Assembly: GCA_024640305.1 (NCBI GenBank) | Contig: JAHEFG010000044.1 | Location: 1-64,000 of the forward strand | Length of the DNA stretch: 64,000 bases | Reading direction: 5' to 3' | DNA from: Gammaproteobacteria bacterium | Lineage (GTDB): Bacteria; Pseudomonadota; Gammaproteobacteria; Steroidobacterales; Woeseiaceae | In this document: in pieces, positions 1 through 16,100 of the stretch | How the letters are laid out: every line of letters starts with the position of its first letter | Numbering within the stretch: the first letter of the stretch is position 1 | Translations under genes and position numbers: made by a program | Notes under the pieces: generated by a model | The model's input: the letters and a program-made list of their open reading frames with translations, nothing else | Told to the model about the DNA's origin: nothing | Databases searched by the model: none

Positions 1-1170
1 ACGAATCAGGTCGTCATCGGCCATGTCGGCAAGTCTGGAAACATCACTTACGATGCCGTGGCTGATATCACGTTCAAACTGCCGAGCAACGACGAGTATG
101 AGCTTCGCGTGTCGCTGCAGGGTGCGACGACATCGGTGGCCGTCCTCGGCGGTAACGGGGCGAACCAGACCTGGTACGAGGTGCTCGGGCATGTCTTCAA
201 TGCCGTGACCGTGGACGGCCAGGCCGGCGTCCTCTCGGTCAGTGGCCAGAGCACGATCAATAGTTTCGCCATCAGGACTGATGACCCGGCGTTCATCTCC
301 GCCGGAGAAGAACTCCTTGCGCCGTCTCTGTCATTGGAAACGGACGTTCCGCTACTCGAGTCCAATGCGGTGCAGCCGATACTGGATGAAGCGATAAGCA
401 GACTCAGCAAGGCCTTTGCGCTCGACAGCGAACAGCAGGCAGCACTTGCCGACATGGACGTTACTATCGCGGACCTGCCCGGACTGGTGCTGGCTCGTCA
501 TAATGGCAACGTGATCGAACTGGATCGCGATGCGGCAGGCCACGGCTGGTTCGTCGATCCGACCCCGGATGCGGATAACGAGTTCGACGCAGACGGCAAG
601 GCGCTTGCCGGAGCCGGTGCTGAAGGTGATATCGATCTCCTCACGGCAATCACTCACGAGTTTGGCCACGTACTGGGCTTCGATCACGACACCGGTGGTC
701 CCATTATGGCCGACTCGCTGACGGCTGGTGTGCGGCTGCAGCCCGGCGAAGAAGCGATGGCCAGCGCAACGGTTAGCGAGGAGTCCAGGACTCTGGTCTT
801 CAATGAGACTCTGGGCCGCTTGTTGAGCGTCAAAGATGCTGCTTACGCGGCGTTGTTTGGCGATACGGATTTCGATGGTGTTGTAGACGATTGGGATCTG
901 GACGGTCACAGTGATATCGGCCGTGCAATCCACGATTCGAGTCGGAGCGACGCGCGCACAGAAGACACGCGAGTCGACCGCAAGGTCATGGCCGATGAAA
1001 TCGAGCCGGACGCCGAAACCGGGTTGACGACAAACAGGTTTGATGAAGCAGATATCAATCTTCCGGGCACGAACTTGCAGAGGAAATTGCCCGCACCGAG
1101 CACCGGGTTGATCGCCTGGACGAGCGAGTCCAGACTCTCGGATAAGACCTTCAACTTCCTCGATACTTAA
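1..1170 (+). CDS. C-terminal part of a large exported protein with a matrixin-like metalloprotease motif (5' end outside window)
   Basis: The reading frame is open to the left edge, so the GTG at 58 is probably not the real start and at least 389 residues of a longer protein are present. A zinc-metalloprotease motif of the HExxHxxGxxH type (HEFGHVLGFDHD, coded at 655-690) is followed by a short turn with a Met (GPIMADSL), as in matrixin/M10 (metzincin) peptidases. The first ~90 residues look like beta-rich repeat sequence (NITYDAVADITFKL). The tail after residue ~300 is Asp-rich and hydrophilic. The downstream cassette of adaptor, site-2 protease and SecA-like genes suggests this is its export substrate; similar cassettes sit beside giant LEPR-XLL-type proteins, but the N-terminus that would confirm that is not in the window. 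Protease motif seen directly; substrate role inferred. Confidence 0.75.
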   Translation, partial: TNQVVIGHVGKSGNITYDAVADITFKLPSNDEYELRVSLQGATTSVAVLGGNGANQTWYEVLGHVFNAVTVDGQAGVLSVSGQSTINSFAIRTDDPAFISAGEELLAPSLSLETDVPLLESNAVQPILDEAISRLSKAFALDSEQQAALADMDVTIADLPGLVLARHNGNVIELDRDAAGHGWFVDPTPDADNEFDADGKALAGAGAEGDIDLLTAITHEFGHVLGFDHDTGGPIMADSLTAGVRLQPGEEAMASATVSEESRTLVFNETLGRLLSVKDAAYAALFGDTDFDGVVDDWDLDGHSDIGRAIHDSSRSDARTEDTRVDRKVMADEIEPDAETGLTTNRFDEADINLPGTNLQRKLPAPSTGLIAWTSESRLSDKTFNFLDT

Positions 1171-1295
1171 TTGAAGGAGTAATCGTAGCTATCTGATAAA
1201 TAATGAAATAATCACCCAATGCCAAGCTGGGTTTGTGTTAAACTTGTTGCCGTCCGTAAAAAAAAACGGAAATAATCCGTACTTTGACGAGCTAT

Positions 1296-1307
1296 TGACA
1301 GCTGTCA
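1296..1307. promoter_or_regulatory. 12-bp perfect palindrome upstream of the secretion cassette
   Basis: TGACAGCTGTCA is a perfect inverted repeat 28 bp before the ATG of the DUF3467 gene, in a 164-bp intergenic stretch that separates the giant protein from the rest of the cassette. A dimeric regulator could bind here. No clear -10 box was identified around it. Confidence 0.3.
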
Positions 1308-1334
1308 TTCAAACAAGAGAGGACTCAGAGAATC

Positions 1335-1736
1335 ATGGCAAATAAGAAAAGCGATATGGATGCCGCGGGCATCGATGTAGGGCAGCCAGCGGCGCCCACG
1401 GTGGATTGGGATGACTCCGAAATGCGTAGCACCTACGCAAACGTCGTTAATGCCTCAAGCACGCGAGAAGAAGTTACGATTTTCTTCGGCACAAATGATA
1501 CCTGGAAACCGACGGCAGAGCGGAAGTTCCATGTCAGCCTGACCGATCGGATCGTGTTGAACCCGTATGCAGCCAAGCGGCTGTGGGTGCTTCTTGGCGC
1601 TATCCTCGGCGAGTATGAATCGCGCTTCGGAGCGCTGCCGATGGAGGGCGTTAAGGCCGCCACTCCCAAGGCTACGGCGGCCGCGAAGGGTGACGGCGGC
1701 AAGAGCAAAGCTCAGCCGCCCGCCAAAGCCAATTAG
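1335..1736 (+). CDS. DUF3467 family protein
   Basis: 133 aa. The central part carries the DUF3467 pattern: YANVVNASSTREEVTIFF near residue 34, a RIVLNPYAAKRL block near residue 73 and a YESRFG tail near residue 96. The last ~30 residues are Ala/Lys-rich and probably disordered. No signal peptide or membrane segment, so it is cytoplasmic. The start ATG follows a purine-rich GAGAGGA site. DUF3467 has no established function. Its place between the giant protein and the adaptor/SecA-like genes suggests a chaperone or coupling role in export, which is inference. Confidence 0.8.
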   Translation: MANKKSDMDAAGIDVGQPAAPTVDWDDSEMRSTYANVVNASSTREEVTIFFGTNDTWKPTAERKFHVSLTDRIVLNPYAAKRLWVLLGAILGEYESRFGALPMEGVKAATPKATAAAKGDGGKSKAQPPAKAN

Positions 1737-1764
1737 CCGGTCGTACCTCTGTTATCGCTGCTTT

Positions 1765-1789
1765 CCACGCGGCATTACCTGCCGTGTGG
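1765..1789 (+). other. RNA hairpin between DUF3467 gene and GAF/HlyD gene
   Basis: CCACGCGGC and GCCGTGTGG form a 9-bp stem with one G-U pair and a 7-nt loop. It ends 14 nt before the GTG start of the next gene and has no clean T-run after it, so it could be an attenuating or RNA-processing hairpin rather than a full terminator. Confidence 0.35.
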
Positions 1790-1803
1790 GATCGTGATTT
1801 ATT

Positions 1804-3678
1804 GTGGTTACTCAGACGTCTGCAGACGCTACCGGTACGGCTCACGCCGCAAGTAACTTTGCCTTCCTTGATGCAGCTCTGTGGAAACGATTCCGCAGTG
1901 CGCGTAGTACGGCAGATGTGGCTAATGCGTGGCTGGCCCTGCAGTGCCGTTTTATCGACGGCGCAAACAGTGGCGTCGTGGTGCTTGGCGAGCCGGACGT
2001 GGGCCCCTATGCGCCGGTCGCTTACTGGCCTGACCAGGAGGCTCACGATCCGGAGTTAGCGGCTGCGGCCGAACACGCGATGTTGGGACGCGAAGGAGTG
2101 GTGCTTGGCGCATCGGAGGGTTCTGGCGAGGCAGAGACCACCTGTGTAGCGCACCCGTTGCTAATAGACGATCGCATTTGCGGTGTGGTTGCCATTTCTG
2201 TAGCAGGCCCATCGGCGCAGATGCGCAATGTGATGCGTCAGCTCCAGTGGGGCACTGGCTGGATTGAAGCGCTATGGCGCCGCAAGCAAAGCCGCAACGA
2301 TGAAGAGTTCCGTGAACAAACTGCGACCACATTCGATATGGTGGCCACCGTTCTCGAACAAGCCCGCTTTCGAGATGCCTGCAACGGCCTCGTCACCGAG
2401 ATGGCGGTACGACTGAATTGTGATCAGGTGAGTATCGGGTTTGTGCGCCGTGACCAGGCTGAAGTCGTCGCGGTTTCCCACACCGCGCGATTCGGTGCGC
2501 GAATGAACCTCATCCGGGATATTGGCGCCGCGATGGACGAGGCTATCGACCAGCATGCGGTCGTCAGTTACCCGGTGATCGAAGACTGGGAGTATCGTGT
2601 GACGCGCGAGCATGCGGCGCTGGCCGCCACATATCATCTCGGTGCCGTACTCACGGTACCGCTGCATGTCCAGGAGCGCCTGGTCGGTGCGCTCACTTTC
2701 GAACGCGGGCTTGGCGAAGAGTTCGATGAGGCAACGGTGGAGATGGCTGACGCTGTAGCCAGCGTCGTTGGCCCGATGCTCGAAGAGAAACGCCTGAATG
2801 ATCGCAATATTCTGGTTAAGGTCGGGGAGTCGCTGTCGACGCAGCTCAGGCGCCTCGTCGGGCCGCATTACTTTGGGCGTAAGCTCGCGACCGCGATTGG
2901 CGTTCTGCTCATTGTCTTTTTCTCTTTCGCCACGGGCGATTTTCGGGTGACGTCAGACGCCGTGCTGGAAGGCCTGGTACAGCGATCTGTTGTGGCACCC
3001 TTCGAGGGCTATCTGGCTACCCAGAACGTGCGGGCGGGGGAAACTGTGACAGAAGGCCAGTTGCTCGCAACGCTGGATGACCGCGATCTTTCTCTGGAAC
3101 GACTCAGGTGGAGCACAACCTATCGGCAGCATCTTGCTGAATATGATCGTGCGCTTGCCGAGCGCGAGCGAGCCGAGGCCAATATCATCCGGACGCAGAT
3201 TGATCAGGCGGCCGCACAGATCGAGTTGCTGGATGAGCAGTTGATGCGCACACGCGTCGTTGCGCCTTTCGACGGCATAATCATCTCCGGCGACCTGAGT
3301 CAGTCTGTCGGCGCAACTGTGGAACGTGGTCAGGAGTTCTTTAAAATCACGCCGCTTGATGCTTACCGCGTGATTCTCGAAGTGGATGACGGGGAAATCG
3401 AGCACATCCAGATCGGACAAACAGGCACGCTGCGGATCGCGTCGATTCCTGAGGATCCCCTGGATTTTACCGTGGAGCGCATCACGCCTGTTTCCGAGCA
3501 GAGTGATGGACGGAATTTCTTTCGCGTGGAAGCGCAATTGCACCGCATCACCGAGCGCATCCGCCCGGGCATGAAGGGTGTCGCAAAAACAAATATCGAA
3601 GAGCGTCTTCTCATCCGGATCTGGACTGAGGGGCTCGTGGACTGGATCCGGCTCATGCTATGGAAGTGGCTGCCCTAG
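1804..3678 (+). CDS. GAF domain-membrane fusion protein (HlyD-like)
   Basis: 624 aa, GTG start. The N-terminal ~180 residues are cytoplasmic and unassigned; a GAF-like sensor domain spans roughly residues 188-334. One membrane helix lies near residues 359-378 (ATAIGVLLIVFFSFATGDF). After it come the two half-motifs of a biotinyl-lipoyl/HlyD domain (VVAPFEGYLATQNVRAGETV and later RVVAPFDGIIISGDLSQ) separated by a coiled coil, then a beta-barrel part. This is an inner-membrane-anchored periplasmic adaptor with a cytoplasmic ligand-sensing domain, an unusual fusion, since HlyD proteins normally have only a short cytoplasmic tail. It is followed after 12 nt by the M50 gene. Probably links export to a cytoplasmic signal; this is inferred from architecture. 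Confidence 0.8.
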   Translation: MVTQTSADATGTAHAASNFAFLDAALWKRFRSARSTADVANAWLALQCRFIDGANSGVVVLGEPDVGPYAPVAYWPDQEAHDPELAAAAEHAMLGREGVVLGASEGSGEAETTCVAHPLLIDDRICGVVAISVAGPSAQMRNVMRQLQWGTGWIEALWRRKQSRNDEEFREQTATTFDMVATVLEQARFRDACNGLVTEMAVRLNCDQVSIGFVRRDQAEVVAVSHTARFGARMNLIRDIGAAMDEAIDQHAVVSYPVIEDWEYRVTREHAALAATYHLGAVLTVPLHVQERLVGALTFERGLGEEFDEATVEMADAVASVVGPMLEEKRLNDRNILVKVGESLSTQLRRLVGPHYFGRKLATAIGVLLIVFFSFATGDFRVTSDAVLEGLVQRSVVAPFEGYLATQNVRAGETVTEGQLLATLDDRDLSLERLRWSTTYRQHLAEYDRALAERERAEANIIRTQIDQAAAQIELLDEQLMRTRVVAPFDGIIISGDLSQSVGATVERGQEFFKITPLDAYRVILEVDDGEIEHIQIGQTGTLRIASIPEDPLDFTVERITPVSEQSDGRNFFRVEAQLHRITERIRPGMKGVAKTNIEERLLIRIWTEGLVDWIRLMLWKWLP

Positions 3679-3690
3679 CCCTGCGCTTTC

Positions 3691-5838
3691 ATGGAAAAAT
3701 CACTTTTCAGCCCGAACTGGTACCGCGCGCAAGACGCCAGGCCATGCCTTCGCAGCCACGCCAGGATCCATCGCCATCATTATCGCGGTCAACTGTGGTA
3801 TGTGCTTCAGGATCGCACGTCCGGACGTTTCCTGCGTTTCACACCCGCAGCCTATCTTGTCATCAGCCTGATGAACGGTCAGCGCACGGTGCAGGAAATC
3901 TGGGACCTTTCATGTGAGCGGCTAGGCGATGATGTCCTGACCCAGGACGAGATGATCTCGCTTCTCGCGCAACTGCACCAGAGTGACGTTCTGCGAGGTG
4001 ATGGAATTCCCGATTTGGCGGAGAGCTCCGAACGAGCCCGCCGGGAGGGGCGCCGCAAGAAAATCATGGGCCTGATCAACCCATTGGCGGTCAGAATACC
4101 CCTGTTGGATCCGGACAGATTCCTCGCCGCCACGATGCCGGCCATACGGCCACTCATGTCCTGGGTCGGTGCCTTGATATTTGTCGCGGTCGTTGCGAGC
4201 GCAGCTGTGCTCGCAGGCCTGAACTGGCCGCGGCTGACGAACAACATCGCCGACCGCGTGCTGGCGGCGGAGAGTATCTTGTTGCTGCTGCTCACTTACC
4301 CATTCGTCAAAGCCATACACGAGCTCGGCCACGGCTATGTGCTCAAACGACTGGGTGGCGAGGTGCACGAGATGGGTCTGATGTTCCTGGTCTTCCTGCC
4401 GGTACCCTACGTGGATGCATCCGATACTGCGGCATTAAGACACAAGTGGCAGCGCGCTCTCGTCGGGGCGGCTGGCATTCTGGTCGAGGCGTTTCTTGCC
4501 TCCCTCGCGCTGTTCGTCTGGCTGAACGCCGAGGAAGGCATGGTTCGAGCCATTGCCTTCAACGTGATGTTAATCGGCGGTGTTTCGACCCTGCTATTCA
4601 ACGGCAACCCGTTACTCAGGTTCGATGGCTACTACGTGTTTTCCGATCTTATCGAAGCGCCCAACCTCGGCAGTCGCTCGAACCGCTATCTGGGCTACCT
4701 GATTCAACGGCATCTGTTTGGGGTCGAGCACCCCGAGCCTCCGGCAACCGCTCCGGGAGAGGCCCGGTGGCTGATCTTTTATTCCATCGCGTCCTTTTGC
4801 TACCGCATCTTCATCATGACGGTAATCATCTCCGTCGTCGCCACCAAGTTCTTTGTAATTGGTGTGGTGCTGGCGCTGTGGGCAATCGTACTCATGTTGG
4901 GGGTTCCACTGGGCAAGCAGCTTCGTTTTCTGTTTACGAGCCCTGTGCTACGCCGCAACCGACGTCGCGCTCTGGGCGTGACCTCGGGCATCATCGCCAG
5001 TGTCGTAATGTTGGTGATGCTGGTGCCGTTGCCCTATTCGACGGTAACCGAGGGCGTTGTTTGGACGCCGGATGAGTCGACCGTGTTCGCCGGAGCCGCC
5101 GGCGTAGTAAACGAGCTCATTGCGCAACCGAATGCCTATGTGGCCGCCGGGGAACCACTGATCAGGCTACAAGACGACTTCCTGGACGCGAGGGTCAAAG
5201 TGCTCGAGGCTCAGGCTGCCGAATTGCGTTTGAGATATGCAGCGCGGGACACTTTCGATCCGGCCGAGGCAAAAATGGTGCAGGAACGTCTCCAGCTCGC
5301 CGAGGCCGACCTCGACCTGACGCTTGAGCGCCAGCGCGATCTGCTGGTGCACAGTGAAACCGACGGGAGATTTGTGGTGCCACGTGCCGCCGATCTTCCC
5401 GGTCGATTCGTTCGCCAGGGGGAGGTGTTGAGCTTCGTGAGCAAGCAGGAGGACTCGGTTGTGCGCGTTGTTGTGCCCGAGGATCAGGCAGATGTGGTTC
5501 GCAATCGAGTGAGATCGGTGGAGCTCAAGTTCCAAAATCGCGTTACGATGACAGTGTCTGCGGAAATCAATAGAGAGATTCCCGCACTTAGCAATACGCT
5601 GCCGAGCCTGGCACTTAGCACCTTGGGCGGCGGGGAAATCGTGCTTGACCCCACCGATACGAACCAGGTCAGGACAATCTCGAGACTATTGCATCTGGAA
5701 CTCAAGCCCGCGTCCACCGAGCATCTGCCCGCCATGGGCAGTCGAGTTTATGTCCGCTTTACGCACGGCGCTGAACCCCTGGCCTTGCGACTATATCGGG
5801 GCATTCGGCAAGTGTTCCTCAGGCGCTTCAATGTCTGA
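3691..5838 (+). CDS. Site-2-protease-like (M50) membrane protein with PqqD-like and lipoyl domains
   Basis: 715 aa. Residues ~20-110 resemble a PqqD-like peptide-binding fold (a TSGRFLRFTPAAYLVISLMN block followed by an acidic helix). Several membrane helices follow. The M50 zinc motif HELGHGYVLKRLGG is at about residue 210, and the second-ligand motif NGNPLLRFDGYY near residue 303. After the last helices (~430) a periplasmic HlyD-like part contains lipoyl half-motifs (TVFAGAAGVVNELIAQPNAY; RFVVPRAADLPGRFV) around a short coiled coil. The layout matches site-2 protease family proteins of adaptor type, seen with giant secreted proteins. It may bind, cleave or guide the substrate through the membrane. 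ATG start 12 nt after the previous stop; overlaps the secA-like start. Confidence 0.82.
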   Translation: MEKSLFSPNWYRAQDARPCLRSHARIHRHHYRGQLWYVLQDRTSGRFLRFTPAAYLVISLMNGQRTVQEIWDLSCERLGDDVLTQDEMISLLAQLHQSDVLRGDGIPDLAESSERARREGRRKKIMGLINPLAVRIPLLDPDRFLAATMPAIRPLMSWVGALIFVAVVASAAVLAGLNWPRLTNNIADRVLAAESILLLLLTYPFVKAIHELGHGYVLKRLGGEVHEMGLMFLVFLPVPYVDASDTAALRHKWQRALVGAAGILVEAFLASLALFVWLNAEEGMVRAIAFNVMLIGGVSTLLFNGNPLLRFDGYYVFSDLIEAPNLGSRSNRYLGYLIQRHLFGVEHPEPPATAPGEARWLIFYSIASFCYRIFIMTVIISVVATKFFVIGVVLALWAIVLMLGVPLGKQLRFLFTSPVLRRNRRRALGVTSGIIASVVMLVMLVPLPYSTVTEGVVWTPDESTVFAGAAGVVNELIAQPNAYVAAGEPLIRLQDDFLDARVKVLEAQAAELRLRYAARDTFDPAEAKMVQERLQLAEADLDLTLERQRDLLVHSETDGRFVVPRAADLPGRFVRQGEVLSFVSKQEDSVVRVVVPEDQADVVRNRVRSVELKFQNRVTMTVSAEINREIPALSNTLPSLALSTLGGGEIVLDPTDTNQVRTISRLLHLELKPASTEHLPAMGSRVYVRFTHGAEPLALRLYRGIRQVFLRRFNV

Positions 5839-7813
5839 CGTAAGCGGAAGCTGGACTCTGCCACCGCTGGTATACCACCCGGAACGTCCGGAGCGTCGCG
5901 AGGGTTGGGTCGATCGCCTGGAGGCGACCGTAACAGCGTGGCCTGTGGTTGTGCGTGCCCGTTTGGGCGACCCCAGAGTTGCCCGCCTGGTGGCCAGTGT
6001 CAACGCGCTGGAAGACCAGCATCTCAACATGGACGAGCACGCGTTGCAGACGAGTACCGAGGCGCTGCGGGTTCGGCTACGCCGGGACGGGTTTAGTCTG
6101 GACGCGGTGGCAGAGGCCTTTGCGCTCGTTCGCGAAGTCAGCCGTCGCACTTTGGGACTGCGCCATTACGATGTTCAACTGGCGGGCGGCTACGCGATGC
6201 TGAACGGCATGGTGGCGGAGATGGACACAGGGGAAGGCAAGACCCTGACGGCAACCTTGACGGCCGCCACAGCGGCCCTTGCGGGTACCCCGGTGCACGT
6301 CGTTACTGTGAACGATTACCTGGCCAAGCGCGACGCGGAGAACATGGGCCCACTGTACAAGGCTTTGGGTTTGACCGTGGGCACAATCGTGCACGGGCTG
6401 CAGCCACCGCAACGGCAAGCTGCTTATGGCTGCGATATCACGTATACAAGCAATAAGGAAATTGCATTTGATTATCTCCGGGACCGTATTGCCCTGGGCA
6501 ATCAGCCAAGCAGTCTCGCTAGAAAGTTGAAGCGAGTGCAAGGGAGTCGACAGGGCGAAGGCACTGTAATGCGTGGCCTGAAATTCGCCATTGTCGATGA
6601 GGCGGATAGCGTACTGGTGGATGAAGCCCGCACGCCGCTAATTATCTCCCGAGAAACACCTCCGGATCGCGAGCAGCAATGGGCTGAGACGTCGCTGGAT
6701 CTGGTGAAGCAGCTTGAAATCGATCGGGACTACAAGATCCTTCGCACTGAACGGCGGGTCGAGCTAACACGTGCGGGCCGGGATCGACTGGCCGGGTTGG
6801 GCGACGAATTGGGAGGCATCTGGCGAAGCTCCGTGAGGCGTGAGGAGTCCGCGCGGCAAGCGTTGACGGCGCTACACCTGTTTCAAAAGGGAGATCATTA
6901 CCTGGTTCAGGACGACAAGGTGCAAATAGTGGATGAGTACTCTGGTCGCATCATGGCTGATCGCTCCTGGAGTGAAGGTCTGCACCAACTCGTCGAGGCG
7001 AAAGAGGGCTGCACCGTGACTGGGCAAAAAGTACCGATGGCACGAATCACCTATCAACGCTTCTTCCGCCGCTATCAGCGCCTGGCCGGTATGACCGGGA
7101 CTGCGCGGGAAGTGAGTAGGGAACTCTGGGCCGTTTACCGCTTGCCTGCCACCAGGATCGCAACCAACCGTCCGACGCAAAGGCGCCACATGCGCACGCG
7201 CATTCTCAAGTCGGCCGAGCTAAAGTGGCAGGCGATCGCGGAGCGTGCCGCAGAGCTGAGTGCTGGAGGACATGCGGTATTGATTGGTACCCGGTCCGTT
7301 GTTGCCTCGGAGACTCTCAGCGAGCTTCTCACAGATGCCGGGCTGGAACACGAGGTGCTCAACGCGGCTCAGGACAAGCATGAAGCGGAGATTATCGCCA
7401 AGGCCGGAGAGTTGGGCCGAATCACCGTAGCGACCAACATGGCGGGACGGGGCGTCGATATACCAGTCGACGAAAGAGTGCTTGAGAAAGATGGTTTGCA
7501 TGTCATCCTTAGCGAACGCCATGACGCGAGCCGCATCGATCGGCAGTTGGCCGGGCGCTGTGGCCGGCACGGTGAGCCTGGAGCGGTCCAGGCCATGCTC
7601 TCCCTGGAGGATCCTTTGCTCGAACTCATATATCCATTCATCATTCGTTGGACAAGTGCATTGCCCCGTTACTGCAGAAACCCAGTGGCTCTGTTCGTGT
7701 TCTGGAGGGCGCAGCGGCGGGCGGAACGCGCACACTCGTCAGCGAGGCGTGCACTATTGAAGCAGGACCAGAAACTCGGTGACCTGCTGGCTTTCTCGGG
7801 AGGCCTGGAATGA
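5831..7813 (+). CDS. SecA-like preprotein translocase ATPase, short form
   Basis: 660 aa from the ATG at 5831, which overlaps the previous stop by 8 nt; an upstream in-frame start would lie inside the M50 gene. SecA motor motifs are intact: LRHYDVQLAGG, Walker A EMDTGEGKT (~residue 130), VNDYLAKRDAENMGPLYK, Walker B-type VDEADSVLVDEARTPLI (~255), LAGMTGTA and TNMAGRGVDI (~535), then RQLAGRCGRHGEPG. It stops about 80 residues after the second nucleotide-binding domain, so the wing domain, most of the helical scaffold and the SEC-C zinc tail of the ~900-aa housekeeping SecA are missing. This points to a specialised accessory SecA that moves only the cassette's own substrate. ATPase homology is clear; substrate is inferred. 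Confidence 0.88.
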   Translation: MSDVSGSWTLPPLVYHPERPERREGWVDRLEATVTAWPVVVRARLGDPRVARLVASVNALEDQHLNMDEHALQTSTEALRVRLRRDGFSLDAVAEAFALVREVSRRTLGLRHYDVQLAGGYAMLNGMVAEMDTGEGKTLTATLTAATAALAGTPVHVVTVNDYLAKRDAENMGPLYKALGLTVGTIVHGLQPPQRQAAYGCDITYTSNKEIAFDYLRDRIALGNQPSSLARKLKRVQGSRQGEGTVMRGLKFAIVDEADSVLVDEARTPLIISRETPPDREQQWAETSLDLVKQLEIDRDYKILRTERRVELTRAGRDRLAGLGDELGGIWRSSVRREESARQALTALHLFQKGDHYLVQDDKVQIVDEYSGRIMADRSWSEGLHQLVEAKEGCTVTGQKVPMARITYQRFFRRYQRLAGMTGTAREVSRELWAVYRLPATRIATNRPTQRRHMRTRILKSAELKWQAIAERAAELSAGGHAVLIGTRSVVASETLSELLTDAGLEHEVLNAAQDKHEAEIIAKAGELGRITVATNMAGRGVDIPVDERVLEKDGLHVILSERHDASRIDRQLAGRCGRHGEPGAVQAMLSLEDPLLELIYPFIIRWTSALPRYCRNPVALFVFWRAQRRAERAHSSARRALLKQDQKLGDLLAFSGGLE

Positions 7814-8652
7814 TTGGCCCAGTTCTCAATAGACGTGTGGTAATTGCACTAGCCGCTATCCTGCTGCTGTTGTCAGAGACGCAGCTTTATGCGCAGCAGG
7901 ACAGTTACAACTGTGTCATGGAGGCAAAGTCAACAATCGAGCTGCAGAGCGCAGAGGAGGGAATCCTCGATCGAGTGTTAGTAGGGCGCGGACAACGCGT
8001 GAAGGCAGGCGAGATCGTCGCCCGTCTGGAATCCAGGCAGGAGGCATTGACGGCAGAACGCGCAAGGCTGCGTGCTGAAGCGAAAACCGGTGTCGATGGT
8101 GCCAAAGCTCAGAGTGAGTTTCGGCGCAAGGAGGCAGAGCGGCTGGAAGATCTGCGCAGTACAAATGCAATTCCGGAGCGCGACTACACGACTGCTGTGG
8201 TGGAGAGTCGCCTGGCGGAGATCGCTGTGGAAACCGCTGTGATGGAGCATGACATTGCCAAATTGGAGTACGAGCAAGCCAGAAGCCGTCTTGAGCGACG
8301 CTCTATACGCAGTCCGGTCGATGGCGTCGTCGTGGATGTCACGATGTTTCCCGGTGAGTACGTGCACGAGCAGGCGACCGTGTTGACCATCGCTGAGATT
8401 GATCCACTTCACGTAGAAGTGTTCATACCGGTTTCGGAGTATAAGGCCGTGCAGCCAGGCATGCCCGCCAAAGTTTCGCCGGAATTGCCGATCGGCGGCA
8501 ATTTCGATGCGGAGGTTGCCGTGGTCGATAACGTTTTTGACGCCGCAAGCCGCACCTTCCGCGTGCGCCTTGTGTTAGCAAACACCGACTATGAGCTGCC
8601 GGCTGGACTTCGATGCACGGTCCGGTTTCTACGGTCTGGAGGCGATCCCTAA
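7810..8652 (+). CDS. Small HlyD-family periplasmic adaptor
   Basis: 280 aa, joined to the SecA-like gene by an ATGA overlap. Signal peptide or anchor at residues 9-27 (VIALAAILLLLSETQLYAQ). Lipoyl half-motif at ~45-70 (GILDRVLVGRGQRVKAGEIV), an alpha-helical hairpin rich in Glu and Arg at ~75-155, the second half-motif RRSIRSPVDGVVVDVTMFPG at ~160-180, then a beta-barrel domain. Shorter than typical adaptors (350-420 aa) and without an obvious membrane-proximal domain. It is the third lipoyl-bearing protein of the cassette and could bridge the inner-membrane parts to an outer-membrane channel, which is not in the window. Confidence 0.85.
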   Translation: MIGPVLNRRVVIALAAILLLLSETQLYAQQDSYNCVMEAKSTIELQSAEEGILDRVLVGRGQRVKAGEIVARLESRQEALTAERARLRAEAKTGVDGAKAQSEFRRKEAERLEDLRSTNAIPERDYTTAVVESRLAEIAVETAVMEHDIAKLEYEQARSRLERRSIRSPVDGVVVDVTMFPGEYVHEQATVLTIAEIDPLHVEVFIPVSEYKAVQPGMPAKVSPELPIGGNFDAEVAVVDNVFDAASRTFRVRLVLANTDYELPAGLRCTVRFLRSGGDP

Positions 8653-8868: not shown

Positions 8869-9447
8869 TCAGGCCGAACTGAACAGGCCGGCAAAACCCA
8901 TAAACGCCATCGATAATATACCCGCAATAATCAGGTTCATCGCTGTGCCCTTGATCAGTTGCGGGATATTGGACAGCTCCGACTCTTCTCGCAAGCCGGC
9001 AAGCAGCACCAGCGCCAGCGTGAAGCCGATTCCGGCACCGAGTGCGTAAACGATACCTTCCCAAAACCCGTAGCCGCGGTTGGTCGCGAAAATCGCGAGC
9101 CCGAGAATTGCGCAGTTCGTTGTGATCAGTGGCAGGAAGATTCCCATCGCGCGGAACAAAGCCGGGCTCAGTTTCTTGATCAGCATCTCGATGAATTGCA
9201 CGGTGCTTGCGATCACGACGATGAAACAGATCAGCCTCAGGTACGGTGCGTAAACCAGTACATAAGTATTCAGTATCCAGGCGCAAATCGCGGTAACGAG
9301 CATCACGAAGGTTGTCGCGAGCCCTAGCCGTGCCGAAGTCTCGAGCGAGTTGGACACGCCGAGGAACGGACAGAGCCCGAGAAAATAAGTCAGTACGAAA
9401 TTATTGACGAGCAATGCACTGATAAAAATCCAGAGAAGGTTGTCCAT
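8869..9447 (-). CDS. rnfA: Rnf complex subunit RnfA
   Basis: 192 aa, about the usual length. Six membrane helices with the RnfA/NqrE patterns NNFVLTYFLGLCPFLGVS near the start and ITTNCAILGLAIFATNRGYG in the middle, each with the conserved Cys that contributes to the membrane-embedded Fe centre. Starts one base inside the rnfE stop (TGATG). With RnfE it forms the antiparallel pair that carries electrons across the membrane core of the ion-pumping ferredoxin:NAD+ oxidoreductase. Confidence 0.95.
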   Translation of the reverse strand: MDNLLWIFISALLVNNFVLTYFLGLCPFLGVSNSLETSARLGLATTFVMLVTAICAWILNTYVLVYAPYLRLICFIVVIASTVQFIEMLIKKLSPALFRAMGIFLPLITTNCAILGLAIFATNRGYGFWEGIVYALGAGIGFTLALVLLAGLREESELSNIPQLIKGTAMNLIIAGILSMAFMGFAGLFSSA

Positions 9448-10091
9448 CAGCTTTCACTCCTCTCTGCCGCAGCGACATCTTCGAGGAACTCGTCCTTTTT
9501 GTACTTGAACCAGTTGAAGAACAGCAGGATCACGCCCAGCGTAAGGAAGCCGCCCGGCGGCAGGATCATGATGACCCAAGGCTCGAAGTTTTCACCGAAC
9601 AGGTTGACGCCGAACAACGCGCCGTCACCGAGTATCTCCCTGACAGCACCGAGTGAAAGCAGTGCCAGCAGGAAGCCGCTGGCCATGCCCATCGCATCCA
9701 TCACCGCAAGTTTGGTCGGGTAGCGTGATGCGAATGCTTCCTGCCGACCGAGGATCAGGCAGTTCGCCACAATCAGTGGAATGAACGCACCCAGTTCCTT
9801 GTGCACCCCTGGCACTAGCGCAAGCAGCGTGTAATCGGCGATGGTCACGAAGGTCGCGATGATGATAATGAAGCAGGAGATACGTACTTGTTTCGGAATC
9901 ACGTTGCGAAATGTTGACACCAGGAAGCTCGAACCGACCAGCACGAAGAACGTCGCCATCCCCATTGCCACTGCGTTGATTGCAGAGTTAGTGACTGCGA
10001 GCATGGGACACATGCCGAGTACCTGCACGAACACTGGGTTGTCGCGCCAGATTCCCTTGATGAATTCTTCCTGGGACTGGTTCTTCTTCAT
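9447..10091 (-). CDS. rnfE: Rnf complex subunit RnfE
   Basis: 214 aa from the ATG at 10091, chosen because it starts MKKNQSQEEFIKGIWRDNPV, the conserved N-terminus of RnfE/NqrD; the frame is open further upstream but that part overlaps rnfG. Multi-helix membrane protein with the paired Cys motifs QVLGMCPMLAVTNSAINA and IVANCLILGRQEAFA that mirror those of RnfA. Overlaps rnfG by 4 nt (ATGA) and rnfA by 1 nt, so these subunits are translationally coupled. Confidence 0.95.
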   Translation of the reverse strand: MKKNQSQEEFIKGIWRDNPVFVQVLGMCPMLAVTNSAINAVAMGMATFFVLVGSSFLVSTFRNVIPKQVRISCFIIIIATFVTIADYTLLALVPGVHKELGAFIPLIVANCLILGRQEAFASRYPTKLAVMDAMGMASGFLLALLSLGAVREILGDGALFGVNLFGENFEPWVIMILPPGGFLTLGVILLFFNWFKYKKDEFLEDVAAAERSES

Positions 10092-10765
10092 TGCGTTGCC
10101 TCGGTGCCCGTTGACTCTGTTGCTCTGAGTTGCGGTTCTGTGCCTGGTGCCGGCAACTGTGCGGACCATGCAGCGTGGGCTTCGTTGATGATCCTGACGA
10201 CTGCCTTGGACGAGATTGTCGCGCCCGTTATTGCGTCAATCTCATTTGGCTGACTTTTCGTGCCTTTCTTGACCGCCACTATTTCCGGCTCGACGGACAA
10301 CGCGCTGAATCCGCCAACGAAGCTGGCATCCTTGTAGATCTTGTCGCCAAGTCCGGGCGTCTCGCGGCTTTCCAGGATTTCCATGCCGACGACGAATTTC
10401 TCACCGGGTTTGTAGCCGTAGAGCAGGGCAATCGTGTCCTGGAAGCCGGGGCCTGCCGCCGGCATTGCGTAGCCCACAAAATTACCCGGTTCGTCGTAGC
10501 CGCCGTAAATGACAGGCTCATCCTTGTCTGGTTTTTCCACGACGACAAGTTCGCCATCCCTGTAGACAAGTGCCTGCATCTGGCTGACCCCGGGAAGCAC
10601 CTTGAACACGGCCTCGCGCAATTCACGGGCTTTGTTGGCGGTAATCGTTGGCAACGTTGATTCGTAGATGCCGATAATCGCCATACCGGATACCAGCCCC
10701 GCGACTGCGAGCGTTAGTACGAGCCGCAGTGAGCTGGGACCGCCTGTATCTTTGGGCGTGTTCAT
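10088..10765 (-). CDS. rnfG: Rnf complex subunit RnfG (covalent FMN)
   Basis: 225 aa. One N-terminal membrane helix (LVLTLAVAGLVSGMAIIGIY) and a periplasmic FMN-binding domain with the attachment motif AITGATISSKAV near residue 180, whose Thr takes FMN through a phosphoester bond. The block TPGLGDKIYK just before is also typical. Overlaps rnfD by 4 nt. Flavin loading needs ApbE, which is not in the window. Confidence 0.95.
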   Translation of the reverse strand: MNTPKDTGGPSSLRLVLTLAVAGLVSGMAIIGIYESTLPTITANKARELREAVFKVLPGVSQMQALVYRDGELVVVEKPDKDEPVIYGGYDEPGNFVGYAMPAAGPGFQDTIALLYGYKPGEKFVVGMEILESRETPGLGDKIYKDASFVGGFSALSVEPEIVAVKKGTKSQPNEIDAITGATISSKAVVRIINEAHAAWSAQLPAPGTEPQLRATESTGTEATQ

Positions 10766-11781
10766 TTTGACTCTGCCCCGCGACCGAACACCGTTGGTTG
10801 CGTGTAACGGTTTATCAACGGTGTTGCCGCGTTCATGAGCAGTATCGCGTACATCACGCCCTCAGGCAGGCCGCCGAAGACGCGTATCAGCATCACGAGG
10901 ACACCGACACCGATGCCAAAGATCCAGGCACCGCGCGGCGTGACCGGCGATGTCACCGGGTCGGTCGCCATGTAGATTGCCCCGAGTAACAGTCCGCCCG
11001 AAAATACCGAGAACAGGGGTGTCGGGAAACGCGCTGCATCAAACAGACCCAGGCAGGCCGAGAAGACCACAACCGTCAGCAGGATGCTCACGGGGATGCG
11101 CCAGTCCAGGTCGCGCCGCAGCCACAAGTAGACCCCGCCAAGCAGGAGCAGGAGACCGCTGGTTTCTCCGAGTGAACCGCTGGTCTTGCCGAACATCAGG
11201 TTTGCGAGCGGCGTCACTTCCTGTTCGAACTTCAGCATGCCGAGCGGTGTTGCGGCTGTCATGCCGTCAATCTGCACCTGCATGAACGGCAGCGCGAGGT
11301 TGCCCGAGTAGATGCTGAAGAATCCGCCGTCGCCTGTTGCCGGCACCCAGGTCGTCATGGCAATCGGAAATGTCGCGAGCAGGAATGCCCGGCCGAGCAA
11401 GGCGGGATTGAACAGGTTGTGACCGAGGCCACCCCAGATGACCTTGCCCAGGGCGATGCCGACGAATCCACCGAGGAAGGCCATCCACAACGGTAGCCCG
11501 GGCGGCAGCGTGAGGCCAAGCAGCAATCCCGTCAGGATACCGCTGGCGTCAAGCAGGGATACGCCGCGAGTTTCCCTGTCGGCAAACAGCCACTCGGCCA
11601 GAACCGCGCCGGCGATACACGTACCGAGCACAAGGATGGCGCTAAGACCGAAAAACCACAGCGACGCGACCGTCGCCGGTGCCAGCGCATACAAGACGTC
11701 ACGCATTGCATTCGGCGTCGTCATTCCCTGGCGCAATAACGGCGCATGGAGCAGCAGGAGATCCGGGTCACGTTTCTTCAC
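10762..11781 (-). CDS. rnfD: Rnf complex subunit RnfD (covalent FMN)
   Basis: 339 aa, about 9-10 membrane helices. FMN attachment motif TAATPLGML near residue 175 and the conserved GGLGHNLFNPALLGRAFLLA block near residue 120. RnfD is the NqrB homologue and probable ion-conducting subunit. It overlaps rnfC at its start (ATGA) and rnfG at its end, keeping the common C-D-G-E-A order of rnf operons. Confidence 0.95.
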   Translation of the reverse strand: MKKRDPDLLLLHAPLLRQGMTTPNAMRDVLYALAPATVASLWFFGLSAILVLGTCIAGAVLAEWLFADRETRGVSLLDASGILTGLLLGLTLPPGLPLWMAFLGGFVGIALGKVIWGGLGHNLFNPALLGRAFLLATFPIAMTTWVPATGDGGFFSIYSGNLALPFMQVQIDGMTAATPLGMLKFEQEVTPLANLMFGKTSGSLGETSGLLLLLGGVYLWLRRDLDWRIPVSILLTVVVFSACLGLFDAARFPTPLFSVFSGGLLLGAIYMATDPVTSPVTPRGAWIFGIGVGVLVMLIRVFGGLPEGVMYAILLMNAATPLINRYTQPTVFGRGAESK

Positions 11782-13118
11782 GCGTCGGGTTCCTTGCGGT
11801 GAGTCAGGTCATCTTTCGCCGTACGAATGAGCTGCACGATCGGGATGCTCGACGGGCAGGCGAATGTGCAACAACCACATTCGACGCAGTCAAACACGTT
11901 GAGAGCCTTCATCTCGTCGAACATGCGGGCTTTGGACAGGCGGGCAAGTCGGGACGGATTCAGAAAATACGGGCAGGCTTCGAGGCAACGGCCGCAGGAG
12001 ATGCAGGGATATTCCTTGCGTCGAGCCGTTTCCTCTTCGGTAAACACCAGGACACCGGAGCAACCCTTGAGGATCGGCACATCGAGGCTCGCAATAGGGC
12101 GTCCCATCATCGGTCCACCCATGATGATCTCGCGCGTCCCGGGCTTGAGACCACCGCAGAATTTCACCACATCGCGCACAGGCGTGCCGAGTGGCACGAT
12201 CAGGTTGGCCGGGTAGGTTACGCCCGGACCCGCTACGGTCACGACCCGTTCGATCAATGGCATGCCGCGCAGGAAGTAATCCGCGATCGCGACGATGGTG
12301 CCGACGTTGTTGACGTTGACCCCGACATCGCGCGGCAATTGTCCGGCCGGCACTTCTTTGTCGAAAACACTCTTGATCATCATCTTCTCGGCGCCCTGCG
12401 GGTACTTGACCTTCAGAGGTACGACTCGCACAGGCTGGCCGGGCTGGATGTGTTTTCGAAGCGTCTCTATGGCATCGGGTTTGTTCATCTCCACGCCAAT
12501 GACGGTCTCTTCGGCACCGAGTTTCTGGCGCATGATCTCCGCGCCTTCGAGCAGCGCTTCCGGCCGCTCCAGCATGAGCCGGTGATCGGTCGTCAGGTAG
12601 GGTTCGCATTCGGCGCCGTTGATCAGCAGGTGCCGGATCTTTACGCCATCGGGCACTGACAGCTTTACGTGCGCGGGAAAGGCGGCGCCACCCATGCCGA
12701 CGATACCCGCCATCTGCACGGCTGCAATGAAATCCTCGAGCGACAGTGACTGCCAGTCGAGCGCGGCGCCGGCGTCGACCTGCTGCGTTGCGAATGGGTC
12801 TGCTTCGATCGCGATTGCGGGTGCAAAACGCCCATCAACACCACGAAAATCACCAATCTCTGTAACCGTGCCCGATACCGGGCTGTGCAGGCCTGTCGAG
12901 ACAAAGCCGCCCGGTTCGGCAATCAGTTGACCGCGCTTGACGCGCTCCCCGGCGGCGACTATGGCTTTGGCCGGCACACCGATATGCTGCCCCAGCGGCA
13001 TGATGTAGTTTTTGCCGAATGGCACGCGTTGAATCGGCAGGTCTGCGGTTTGCTGTTTATGATGAGCCGGATGGACTCCGTGCTCGAAGCTACGCCGTAA
13101 AAAGCCGAGAGCTTTCAT
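11778..13118 (-). CDS. rnfC: Rnf complex subunit RnfC (NADH/flavin, 2[4Fe-4S])
   Basis: 446 aa. The N-terminal part has a lipoyl-like GHH domain and a NuoF-like FMN/NADH-binding core (GMGGAAFPAHVKL; INGAECEPYLTTDHRLM). Two [4Fe-4S] motifs lie near residue 370 (CISCGRCLEACP) and residue 410 (CVECGCCTFACP). Peripheral cytoplasmic subunit that exchanges electrons with NAD(H). It is shorter than the E. coli protein, which has a long Ala-rich tail. Starts 5 nt after the 1458-aa PFOR-like gene. Confidence 0.95.
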   Translation of the reverse strand: MKALGFLRRSFEHGVHPAHHKQQTADLPIQRVPFGKNYIMPLGQHIGVPAKAIVAAGERVKRGQLIAEPGGFVSTGLHSPVSGTVTEIGDFRGVDGRFAPAIAIEADPFATQQVDAGAALDWQSLSLEDFIAAVQMAGIVGMGGAAFPAHVKLSVPDGVKIRHLLINGAECEPYLTTDHRLMLERPEALLEGAEIMRQKLGAEETVIGVEMNKPDAIETLRKHIQPGQPVRVVPLKVKYPQGAEKMMIKSVFDKEVPAGQLPRDVGVNVNNVGTIVAIADYFLRGMPLIERVVTVAGPGVTYPANLIVPLGTPVRDVVKFCGGLKPGTREIIMGGPMMGRPIASLDVPILKGCSGVLVFTEEETARRKEYPCISCGRCLEACPYFLNPSRLARLSKARMFDEMKALNVFDCVECGCCTFACPSSIPIVQLIRTAKDDLTHRKEPDA

Positions 13119-13123
13119 CGTTG

Positions 13124-16100
13124 TCAGTCCCGCTTCCGCGATGCCAGTTGCAGCAGGCGGCTACGGATGTTGCTGGCAATCTCAGCCTGTGTTTTCTCCT
13201 GGATTTCCCGGATCTCTGCTGCCGCGGCCTGTTTCTGAGCATCGAGTGCAGCCTGGTGCTCGTCTGCCAACTGTGCGCGGATTTCCTGCTCCAGTCGGGT
13301 AGTAAACGGTGTGATGATGCCCGCGAGTTCCTGCAAGGTCTGCCAGTTCGCCAGGCACTGCTCGGCAGTGTCAGCAAGAGCCTGCGGAACCGCGAATCGT
13401 TGTTTTTCTTCGCCATCACCGCTGGCGATATACGGCGTCTTGCCTTTGCGGCCTTTGGCATCCAGTTGCAGCCACTCGTGGAACGGGGACGGTGAGGCCG
13501 CGTCGGCGGCCAGCGGCGCGAACTGCGAGGCAAATCGTTCTTGTCCGAGCGCCCAGTCCGCCAGCGTCAGGGGATGATCGCCGTCCTCGCCCTGCGCCAG
13601 TCTCTGGTTAGCTGCAGGGTTGCCGTCAAGGCTTATGCGCGACCCGAACACGCCCTCTATGCGGGGGTCGTAGCGGAACAGCGGCAGCGTGCGGCTCGCA
13701 ACCGCGAGTTGCGCCTGAGCAAGCGTCTGTTTGCTGATATAGCCATGTCGCGTCGGGCTCGGCGCATACACCTGGAGCAGGGCGGGACCCTGGTAGTCGA
13801 GCGCCTGCAGCATGCTCGTGCCGAGGTGAACGGGATTGGCGATCGAAGTTTGTGCGACGTAGGCGTTACGTTGCGCCAGGGCAAGCAAGCCGAGATTGCC
13901 GCGCGGGTTGTTATTACTTGCGCCGCGACGACCGAGGTCGAGTGCGCTGAGAACCAGAACCTTCACCGGAAGTCCGGAATTCAGCAACCAGATCAACTGG
14001 CTCAACCCTTGTCCAGCGAGCATCTCGTCACTGCCGATCAATACGAGGGGCGGGCAGACGGCCAGTTCCTCGTCTCCCAGATCCTGCCAGTGCAAACTTG
14101 CGAGTGCCTCGCGCTTCCAGTTGGCACCGTCCGGTTGGTCGATCTCGATGTGCGCCAAACGTAACAGACGAACGAGGTCCGTGGTCTCGTCCAGGTGCCC
14201 CTCGACCAAGCCCGCGGCCACCTGTGCGGCGTCGCCAGTCATGTCAACAAATGTCGGTGCCTGAAACGGATTATGCGGAAACGCGCCGGCCCAGGTAGCG
14301 GCGCTGCCGCCGGCTACGGCCAGACCGTAACGCGCTCGGCCGAGGCCATGTTTACCTGCAACCAGGCGGCTGTGAGCTGCGGTGATTTTGTTCGAAAGAT
14401 CGATCAGGCGCAGGAGATATTCCGTGTCGATGGAGTGGTCGCCGGACGCGTCCCCGACGCCTTCTGCCAGGTCCTTGAGATCGACGCGTGGGCTCGTGGT
14501 GCTTTTTAACTTTTCGGTGACCGCATCGAGATCTTCTACCGCGAAGGTGCTCGAAAGCGTCTCGTTTATCAGAGTAGCGAGGGACTCGCCCGCCACGGCG
14601 AGCGATTCGGCGAAGCGCTGCACAATTGGCTGCTGATGAAACTCGGTCGCGGAGAGGGCCAGTTTGACTGCCATTTTTTCGCCGGAGCCAGCTTCTGCGT
14701 GGTCGCCCCCGGCCAGCGCAAATTGGCAATAGCGTGACAACAGAATTGCGGCCATAGTGCCGATATCGGAGTTCTCTGCAACGCGTTCAAGCGTCTCCGA
14801 CGAGGTGTCAGGCGTGGCCGAAAATACCGACCAGAGCTCGCGCGCCTGCTCAAGTGATGCTGCATCCTGCTCAGCAGCGCGCAGTGCTTCGGGCTCGCAA
14901 TTGGTTACACAAATGCCGCAGGCCTTGCAGGCCTCGGGATTGATCACGAGTGAAAACAGCTCGGCACTGTCTTTCTTCTGTGCCTCGGCGTCGAGGAAAA
15001 AGGGTTTCGTGACGGCAACCGGCAGCGCGCCCAGCGCGGTGCCTATCGCGTTGATACCGTCCTGGATTGCCTGCTTGCGCTCTTCCGGAAGCGGCATCTT
15101 GTCGTTGAGCCAGGCGTAGGCGTCGTCGAGAAGCTGGCCAAACGTCGGTGCGACCTCATCGGCTTTTTTGTTACTCGAGACGATGCGCGATGCGAGTTTT
15201 GAGGCAACCTGGCGCACGGCATCTGCGCCAGTGCGGCTAATGCCAGCGTCGATGAGTGCTGCCGGGGTTGCTGCGACAACGCCGATCGCGCTGTCCGGGC
15301 AATGCGTCCAGCATTTGCCACAGCCTGTGCATAGCGTCGGATCAAAAGCGGGCATCCCGCCACGCGTCAGGCTCGTGTCATTAAAGGTCGAGCTCAGCGG
15401 CGGCATGGTTCCGGTGGCGAGAAACGGGTCCGCGGTCAGGCGATCTGCCTGACCATCACGGTAGAGAACGCCTGTCTGATCCCAGAAGCGCGGCAGGCTT
15501 GCGAAATTATCATCATTACGGCCGAGATGACGGACCGCTGCCGGAGCTTCGCCTTCCCAGCGAGCGGGCACGTCGGCATCGACGTCGGAATCTATTTCGA
15601 CAAGCTGTTCGAAGCCGGCCTGGAACGCAGCTAGGATATTTTCTCTTTGGCCTGCTTCGATACCGTCGAGCAGGCCCTTGCGAGCGGCGCTGATGCGGCG
15701 TGTTTTGTGATCGAGCATGCCGGCGTTGACGAGAACGCCAAACAGTCCTCCGAGCAGTGTCTCCAGCGGCTCGGTGTTGTCGTCCGGCAGAGGAATGCGG
15801 AAGGAACTGGCTGTTGCACCGATGGTCACAACTGCGCGCGGCACATCCAGCGTGACGTCAGCAACGAGATCGTCGCCGAGGTCGTGCAGCGAGTCATCGC
15901 CGTGTGTAAGCCAGTCGATTTCGCTCCCTGACCAACGTTCCCACGCAACGGCGGGTCGGGTGCGTATGCGACCACCTTCCAGCTCATGTAGCAGGGCGCC
16001 TGCAGCTCCCATGATTTCCTGGCCCCGTTTACCGCGGTGTATGGCTATCGTGAGCGTACCTTTCGGATTCTTTATCGAATTACCGTGTGGTGCCCGGACT

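Follow-up and report, generated by a model that had tools for sequence, protein, structure and literature searches.

A conserved cassette built on an RRE-M50-HlyD fusion protein as a putative maturation and export system for giant LEPR-XLL proteins

We analyzed a 64,000-nucleotide stretch of DNA (the window) from a gammaproteobacterium of the Woeseiaceae (assembly GCA_024640305.1), which opens with a six-gene cassette featuring a short SecA and a putative fusion of a PqqD-like RiPP recognition element (RRE; RiPP, ribosomally synthesized and post-translationally modified peptide), an M50 peptidase and an HlyD adaptor. The first base of the window is also the first of contig C34 in a draft assembly (46 contigs, 2.8 Mb, 78% complete), so that its first gene is cut by this contig edge. 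An earlier reading of the letters alone (the original prediction) had listed here a protease-motif open reading frame (ORF) followed by genes for DUF3467, GAF-HlyD, M50, 660-aa SecA-like and HlyD proteins; we located all six in this order on the + strand, each with Pfam or NCBIfam support (Table 1). The M50 and SecA genes overlap by 8 nt, and the SecA and small HlyD genes overlap at an ATGA. The two HlyD-like adaptors of that prediction are indeed present as genes, but HlyD modules occur in three of the proteins, namely the GAF-HlyD protein, the small HlyD protein and the M50 fusion, which has one of its own. No ABC family member and no RND or MFS pump was found among the six proteins. A canonical SecA (ORF of 978-991 aa) is coded on a separate contig, C39, of the same genome.

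Table 1. Features of the cassette, with positions in the window.
Feature	Position	Strand	Support
3' end of presumed substrate, C-terminal 389 aa, M10/matrixin-type metalloprotease domain HEFGHVLGFDHD	1..1170	+	PF00413 E 3e-8
DUF3467 protein, 133 aa	1335..1736	+	Pfam E 1e-16
GAF-HlyD adaptor, 624 aa	1804..3678	+	Pfam GAF plus HlyD
RRE(PqqD)-M50-HlyD fusion, 715 aa, likely hub of the cassette	3691..5838	+	Pfam M50, HlyD, PqqD-like start; NF041824
PqqD/RRE-like domain, about aa 20-101	3748..3993	+	Pfam PqqD in homologues, PDB profile, predicted fold
Zinc-binding HELGH, aa 210-214	4318..4332	+	H, E, H columns kept in 148/148
NPLLRFDG, third zinc ligand region, aa 306-313	4606..4629	+	Alignment of 148 relatives
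HlyD barrel-sandwich part of M50 protein, about aa 446-696	5026..5778	+	Pfam, predicted model, Foldseek
Short SecA, 660 aa from ATG at 5831	5831..7813	+	SecA_DEAD E 9e-108
Walker A TGEGKT of short SecA	6227..6244	+	GEGKT/S in 109/119 uncut SecA relatives
Walker B VDEADS of short SecA	6593..6610	+	Motif comparison of uncut SecA relatives
Small HlyD/RND-type periplasmic adaptor, 280 aa	7810..8652	+	Pfam; TIGR01730 above cut-off

A scan of named genomes recovered at least 483 relatives of the M50 protein, the best 80 loci of which were used for neighborhood counts, with many of these cut by contig ends. They span Alpha-, Beta- and Gammaproteobacteria, desulfobacterial/deltaproteobacterial lineages, Nitrospira, Rokubacteria and one Omnitrophota-labelled record. 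To these we added 60 stretches around M50 genes from a sample of the phylum, 47 of type A and 13 of type B. These types denote strong and weak M50 matches, a split set after viewing the scores at 380 bits for the SecA-slot count and 330 bits for the alignment, with three cases of split genes with SecA (G180, L236 and L237) counted as type A. As named loci and sampled genomes overlap (e.g., L092 = G090 and L094 = G289), our counts are of loci rather than of independent genomes. Among the 80 named loci, 77 have a GAF-HlyD gene (the three others begin at a contig edge), 77 a SecA relative, 57 a small HlyD gene on the same strand and 33 a DUF3467 gene on the same strand. The 47 type-A stretches have GAF-HlyD in 42, SecA in 44 and HlyD in 39 instances. 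The type-B stretches combine a lower-scoring M50 with two HlyD-type genes and have no SecA (0/13); their 13 M50 proteins make up one side of a fully supported branch in the M50 tree. Closer to the window, a convincing M50 homologue was seen in 10 of 147 genomes from its order, with six further matches at E<=1e-3 being weak, and the closest named relative among the matches listed is a Woeseiaceae metagenome-assembled genome with a 90% identical M50 protein. The DUF3467 homologues lie directly 3' of a giant gene in three genomes (G090, G022 and G008; tblastn identity 47-49%), and the public annotation of Pseudosulfitobacter has a LEPR-XLL giant, HlyD, site-2 protease, SapC, SecA (mislabelled) and adaptor adjoining each other.

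Thus the check on gene order around short secA genes proposed in the original prediction came out positively, with the order recurring in dozens of loci from several phyla. A reading of the cassette as chance neighbors in one draft genome could draw on the window lying at the edge of a contig in an incomplete genome. It is ruled out by the co-occurrence of the same genes across these loci and phyla and by two associations detailed below (p=2e-28 for the linkage to LEPR-XLL proteins and p=5e-38 for second SecA genes), and we regard it as extremely improbable.

The hub of the system is likely the RRE-M50-HlyD protein and not SecA. First, the Pfam PqqD model matches at E<=0.1 within the N-terminal 100 residues of 17 of 18 homologues, and a profile of these residues run against the PDB returned just three matches at E<=10, all of them PqqD chains (E 0.03-0.2). 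In the window protein itself, both the M50 and the PqqD matches fall just under the Pfam cut-offs. The signal for a putative PqqD/RRE domain fused to the M50 domain is, by this comparison, weak but specific. Second, its best NCBIfam match is NF041824, the daptide intramembrane metalloprotease (E 5.7e-48, aa 20-403, 163.9 bits). Third, in an alignment of 148 M50 proteins (135 type A and 13 type B), the H, E and H of the HExxH motif and the catalytic Asp are intact in every sequence. The motif of the third ligand retains NP and D in 135/135 type-A proteins, with the D kept in 13/13 and the NP in 7/13 of type B. Fourth, the AlphaFold model of the protein (mean predicted local distance difference test score, pLDDT, 84; predicted template modelling score, pTM, 0.56) places three strands and three helices first, followed by long helices and then an adaptor-like barrel and hairpin. 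All of the 50 Foldseek matches listed for it are periplasmic adaptors or efflux components, such as MexA, MacA, AcrA, EmrA and CusB. The M50 protein had originally been cast as a mere channel or guide, which is contradicted by the active site retained in 148/148 relatives and by the PqqD/RRE-like domain. It looks instead like an active protease with a leader-binding-type domain, and the fusion of an RRE to an M50 peptidase points to leader processing.

The candidate substrates are giant proteins with a LEPR-XLL signal, for which a curated model (NF012209) exists; counts made with it are lower bounds, as the LEPR-like giant of genome G332 is not reported by it. In the phylum sample of 398 genomes, NF012209 matches occur in 41 and an M50 relative (E<=1e-20) in 91, with both present in 40 (p=2e-28). 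Conversely, 32 of the 39 genomes with a type-A M50 have a NF012209 match. When 53 of the 54 LEPR-XLL hits (the hit of the window's own genome being omitted) were compared with 56 M50 places chosen from the phylum search, 26 lay on the same contig, 21 of them within 15 kb. In the window's order, six of seven LEPR-XLL genomes have the M50 protein; in the seventh, a relative of the short SecA (607 bits, cut) and an HlyD gene adjoin the LEPR-XLL gene. A second phylum (198 genomes) gave a weaker replication, with M50 in four of six LEPR-XLL genomes (p=8e-5). A third group (14 genomes, from the phylum group to which the Omnitrophota-labelled genome belongs) has LEPR-XLL in two and M50 in one of these, where a 6,179-aa LEPR-XLL ORF directly follows the M50 gene. 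The LEPR-XLL matches in the genomes without an M50 relative at the cut-offs applied, from the second phylum (G643 and G696) and the third group (G551) cover only part of NF012209. The co-occurrence in 40 of the 41 LEPR-XLL genomes (p=2e-28) bears out the proposed tie of a conserved cassette to giant proteins, and a dedicated route for giant LEPR-XLL proteins is well supported by this linkage.

The intact giants in three neighborhoods from the window's order are 5,600, 5,944 and 10,011 aa long, with LEPR-XLL near each start, and the longest LEPR-XLL ORF beside an M50 gene has 15,434 aa. A still longer open frame with LEPR-XLL, of 19,427 aa, was seen at G207:C115:112865 (-), on a contig free of the listed M50 places. 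Some type-B cassettes (of the set L238-L250, a sister clade without SecA) also lie near LEPR-XLL giants (in G228, G339, G183 and G210). The expectation that the upstream gene is always giant and shares an N-terminal signal holds in part: the neighboring giant is often a LEPR-XLL protein, but the gene is not always giant, with a large same-strand ORF no more than 3 kb away from the cassette in 45 of the 80 named loci and too little sequence in 24 others. In the window's own genome, LEPR-XLL (33 bits against a cut-off of 17) lies at the start of a 5,024-aa frame left open at the end of contig C29. The last part of this frame aligns to residues 3,324-3,969 of the 5,600-aa giant of G090, and a RTX-type repeat lies at its cut end. 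We infer that this ORF probably forms the 5' part of the gene ending in the first 1,170 nt of the window; no overlap was found between the ends of contigs C29 and C34, and the 389-aa fragment of the window showed no homology to three other giants.

We surveyed the giant N-termini of 36 loci, 23 of which were readable, with the remaining 13 lacking a readable motif. The 23 giants share the leader consensus E-x-L-E-x-R-[ILV]-L-L-S-[AG]-[DE]. The search pattern partly dictated its L, E and R; it did not dictate the flanking E (22/23), [AG] (23/23) and [DE] (23/23). The first possible start codon is 17-67 residues away from the leader, which has a basic stretch ahead of it; the mean charge is +3.3 in the preceding 20 residues and -6.7 in the following 50. 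No strongly hydrophobic core was found in the 23 readable N-termini, whose best 15-residue mean hydropathy is 0.6-1.9 as calculated without a signal-peptide control set. One of four giant N-termini also has a sub-threshold match to PF07595 (Planc_extracel).

The short SecA of the window matches the SecA_DEAD, preprotein-binding and P-loop models of Pfam, which we take to correspond to nucleotide-binding domain 1, the preprotein-binding domain, nucleotide-binding domain 2 and no more than the beginning of the scaffold helix. Its profile matches the Bacillus subtilis SecA chain 3jv2 (783 residues) at residues 14-608 and then stops; the absent C-terminal part would presumably hold the two-helix finger and the wing. 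Structure matches show 38-39% identity to B. subtilis SecA, with the best listed template modelling score (0.82) for SecA in the SecY complex 6itc. The protein scores below every listed SecA and SecA2 cut-off (best SecA2 model, 536 bits against 1085), and its ATPase motifs are intact. As counted from the per-genome column of SecA matches in the 398 genomes, a second SecA gene is present in 34, of which 32 have a type-A M50 (p=5e-38; the exceptions are G291 and G315). Because second SecA genes track the type-A M50 in this manner, we assign the short SecA to the cassette. In the SecA tree, 18 canonical copies are set apart by a 100%-supported branch. In some public records, a gene overlapping the M50 match is labelled 'preprotein translocase subunit SecA' or 'DEAD/DEAH box helicase', and two plasmid genes labelled 'prepilin peptidase' (L293:16222-18138 and L296:15074-17098) are short SecAs (857 and 848 bits) with the GEGKT present.

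The original prediction had a SecA-type motor replace the ABC or RND motor. In its strong form, the short SecA would be indispensable as a motor driving the giant through an M50/HlyD assembly, as might be suggested by a SecA relative, whole or cut, following the M50 gene in 126 of 133 type-A loci, by Walker A being retained in most uncut copies (109/119) and by the near confinement of second SecA genes to cassette genomes (32/34). Against this, SecA is absent from all 13 type-B loci, and of the seven type-A loci without it, two end at a contig edge and five have room but no SecA in the slot (L075, L101, G332, G478 and G019). In the genomes of L075 and L101, a short SecA adjoins a further M50 copy; a genome-wide search of G332 and G478 found no second match of SecA length. 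Further, all four ATPase motifs (Walker A, Walker B, V and VI) are lost in 8 of the 119 uncut copies by at least five changes on the M50 tree, with the neighboring M50 and GAF-HlyD genes kept. One such locus (G022) retains the 10,011-aa giant. The losses were counted on the M50 tree because the SecA tree is midpoint-rooted and the degenerate copies are very long-branched; the M50 tree was made by a quick method without bootstrap from 136 of 148 rows, after dropping those with a cut or missing SecA (including L075 and L101) and identical rows. Two pairs of degenerate copies have ratios of nonsynonymous to synonymous substitution (dN/dS) of 0.33 (G022/G008) and 0.24 (L063/L066), with neighboring genes at 0.12-0.13; the degenerate copies of these two pairs are still under constraint and not in mere decay. 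The missing C-terminal part, where we presume the finger and wing to lie, also speaks against an essential motor. SecA is thus a variable, dispensable part of the cassette and, because its motifs are repeatedly lost and type B lacks it, its ATPase is not a universal motor. It may serve as a motor where intact, but an essential one appears unlikely. What stands of the replacement claim is the lack of a regular ABC neighbor, as an ABC-type ATPase pattern was seen in only 5 of 140 neighborhoods of relatives.

A two-step route, in which canonical SecA and SecYEG, with the short SecA, take the giant to the periplasm, HlyD and TolC proteins take it across the outer membrane and the M50 protein trims it, fits the retention of one canonical-length SecA in each of the 17 genomes searched (16 type A and one type B) and the preprotein-binding domain kept by the short SecA. 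It fits poorly with the giant N-termini, given their range of hydropathy described above, and with the short SecA lacking what we take to be the SecY-engaging finger region. We consider this route somewhat unlikely, though less so than SecA as an essential motor.

A TolC-type gene lies directly before the giant in G022, G109 and G090, and Methylosinus sp. C49 has one in the same run of genes. In several cassettes, mostly alphaproteobacterial, a further gene is inserted between M50 and SecA (about 260-285 aa in L053, L055, L058, L062 and L191), which, judged by eye, resembles one labelled as SapC family in the public record of the same arrangement. M50 proteases commonly act in regulated proteolysis, and the cassette might accordingly be read as quality control or signaling, with the M50 site-2 protease sensing the giant, the GAF-HlyD protein relaying the signal and the giant leaving by an unlinked type I system. 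The GAF domain and the several unlinked outer membrane efflux protein (OEP) genes of the window's genome would suit such a role. However, three HlyD modules, the TolC genes beside some cassettes and the pointer to leader processing from the RRE-M50 fusion argue against it, and we deem it improbable.

With type I secretion and tripartite efflux the cassette shares HlyD/RND-type adaptors and the RTX-type repeat in the giant of the window's genome, and OEP/TolC genes lie beside several cassettes. It differs in lacking an ABC, RND or MFS pump among its six proteins, in having an adaptor fused to an RRE-M50 protease and in the N-terminal signal of its presumed substrate, as the type I secretion signal is C-terminal. 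The short SecA has the SecA_DEAD, preprotein-binding and P-loop domains of SecA and SecA2, but ends in the scaffold helix, lacks the C-terminal third and scores under the SecA2 cut-offs. With the daptide protease MpaP/DapP (NF041824), the M50 protein shares an RRE N-terminally fused to an M50 peptidase and the system shares a leader motif L-E-x-[M/R]; the cassette has a giant protein as its substrate in place of a short peptide and its M50 protein has an extra HlyD half. No daptide-modifying enzyme was found among the six cassette proteins. According to passages of one paper, daptides have an RRE fused to the N-terminus of a site-2 protease and a leader motif ELExMEAP, with leader removal ascribed to the RRE-dependent MpaP (PMC10036551); a passage of another has the products cut after an ELExxxxx motif (PMC12338566). 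The resemblance between L-E-x-M of the daptides and L-E-x-R of the giants is a lead. An M50 peptidase is also shared with the epipeptides, where EpeP is presumed to cut its product, a small peptide, and to export it; that passage reports some epipeptide production left upon epeP deletion and does not mention HlyD or SecA partners (PMC10885120).

The cassette lacks features by which type I secretion (an ABC pump), SecA2 (the C-terminal part) and daptide biosynthesis (modifying enzymes) are defined. The giants carry NF012209, but this model and PF07595 name a signal only, and two papers that use the term LEPR-XLL merely mention it in the passages concerned. We found no published description of the cassette among the Creative Commons-licensed PubMed Central papers to which our literature search was limited. 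What is new is the arrangement; every part comes from known families. In a separate observation, a Citrobacter freundii plasmid (L295) codes for a distant M50-HlyD protein (26.7% identity), an Ig-like giant, TolC and adaptors, without SecA. Passages on the Ig-like IncHI protein RSP, to which this giant may correspond, credit RSP export to TrhC, a type IV ATPase of the plasmid, and the main texts concerned contain neither TolC nor HlyD as a term (PMC6764697, PMC8730810). On these grounds we did not use RSP in support as a worked-out relative.

Taken together, we favor, with a probability of roughly 0.6, a reading from sequence comparison in which the cassette serves the maturation and export of a single giant protein, surface-bound or secreted, with an N-terminal LEPR-XLL signal. 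First, the RRE/PqqD domain of the M50 protein would bind the LEPR-XLL leader in the cytoplasm, as RREs do with RiPP leaders. Second, the intramembrane M50 site would cut the leader. Third, the HlyD part of the M50 protein, the GAF-HlyD protein and the small HlyD protein would form a periplasmic adaptor assembly docking on a TolC-type channel. Fourth, the core of the short SecA (two nucleotide-binding domains and the preprotein-binding domain) would act as an accessory ATPase that holds or pulls the chain in an unfolded state; several lineages would have turned it into a non-ATPase partner or lost it. More tentatively, at somewhat less than even odds, the cassette may represent a new class of secretion system, in which LEPR-XLL is a leader read by an RRE-fused intramembrane protease that serves as the inner-membrane base of a HlyD/TolC conduit. 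RiPP-style leader recognition would here be scaled up to proteins with several thousand and as many as 15,000 residues, with a stripped SecA as the ATPase or, where dead, as a subunit holding the substrate.

Several observations weigh against the favored reading. On the side of the protease, the NF041824 score of 163.9 bits is under the curated cut-off of 300, the PqqD similarity of the window protein is below the Pfam cut-off and its PDB matches are weak (E 0.03-0.2). In passages of the daptide study, the tested RRE-leader contact and leader mutations concerned MpaB and not the peptidase MpaP (PMC10036551). On the side of the giants, 7 of the 39 genomes with a type-A M50 have no NF012209 match (one, G332, has the unreported LEPR-like giant), and M50 is missing from two of six LEPR-XLL genomes in the second phylum and from one of two (G551) in the third group. 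Further, 11 of the 80 named loci have no adjacent large ORF despite room for one, and part of the leader consensus goes back to the search pattern. TolC-type genes were seen in only 20 of 140 neighborhoods, many of the 140 stretches being too short to show one, and contigs C29 and C34 have no OEP match, with the several OEP genes of the window's genome on other contigs. Finally, binding, cleavage and export are deduced from comparisons of sequences, and the reading leaves the energy source unaccounted for where SecA is degenerate or absent.

Beside the cassette, the opposite strand carries (8869-17500 (-)) a run of ORFs resembling an Rnf electron-transport operon and, after it, a putative 1,458-aa oxidoreductase with ferredoxin-type motifs.

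For many giant proteins of bacteria it is not clear how they leave the cell. LEPR-XLL, so far a named signal without a machinery, is now linked to one, and our reading of the cassette predicts both a recognizing domain and a cleavage event for it. The cassette is present in cultured bacteria, namely Thioclava pacifica, Methylorubrum species, Ensifer and Methylosinus sp. C49, and in Pseudosulfitobacter sp. DSM 107133 the adjoining giant is annotated as LEPR-XLL. The short SecA, a natural minimal version that has several times turned into a pseudoenzyme, offers a handle on the SecA core without SecY.

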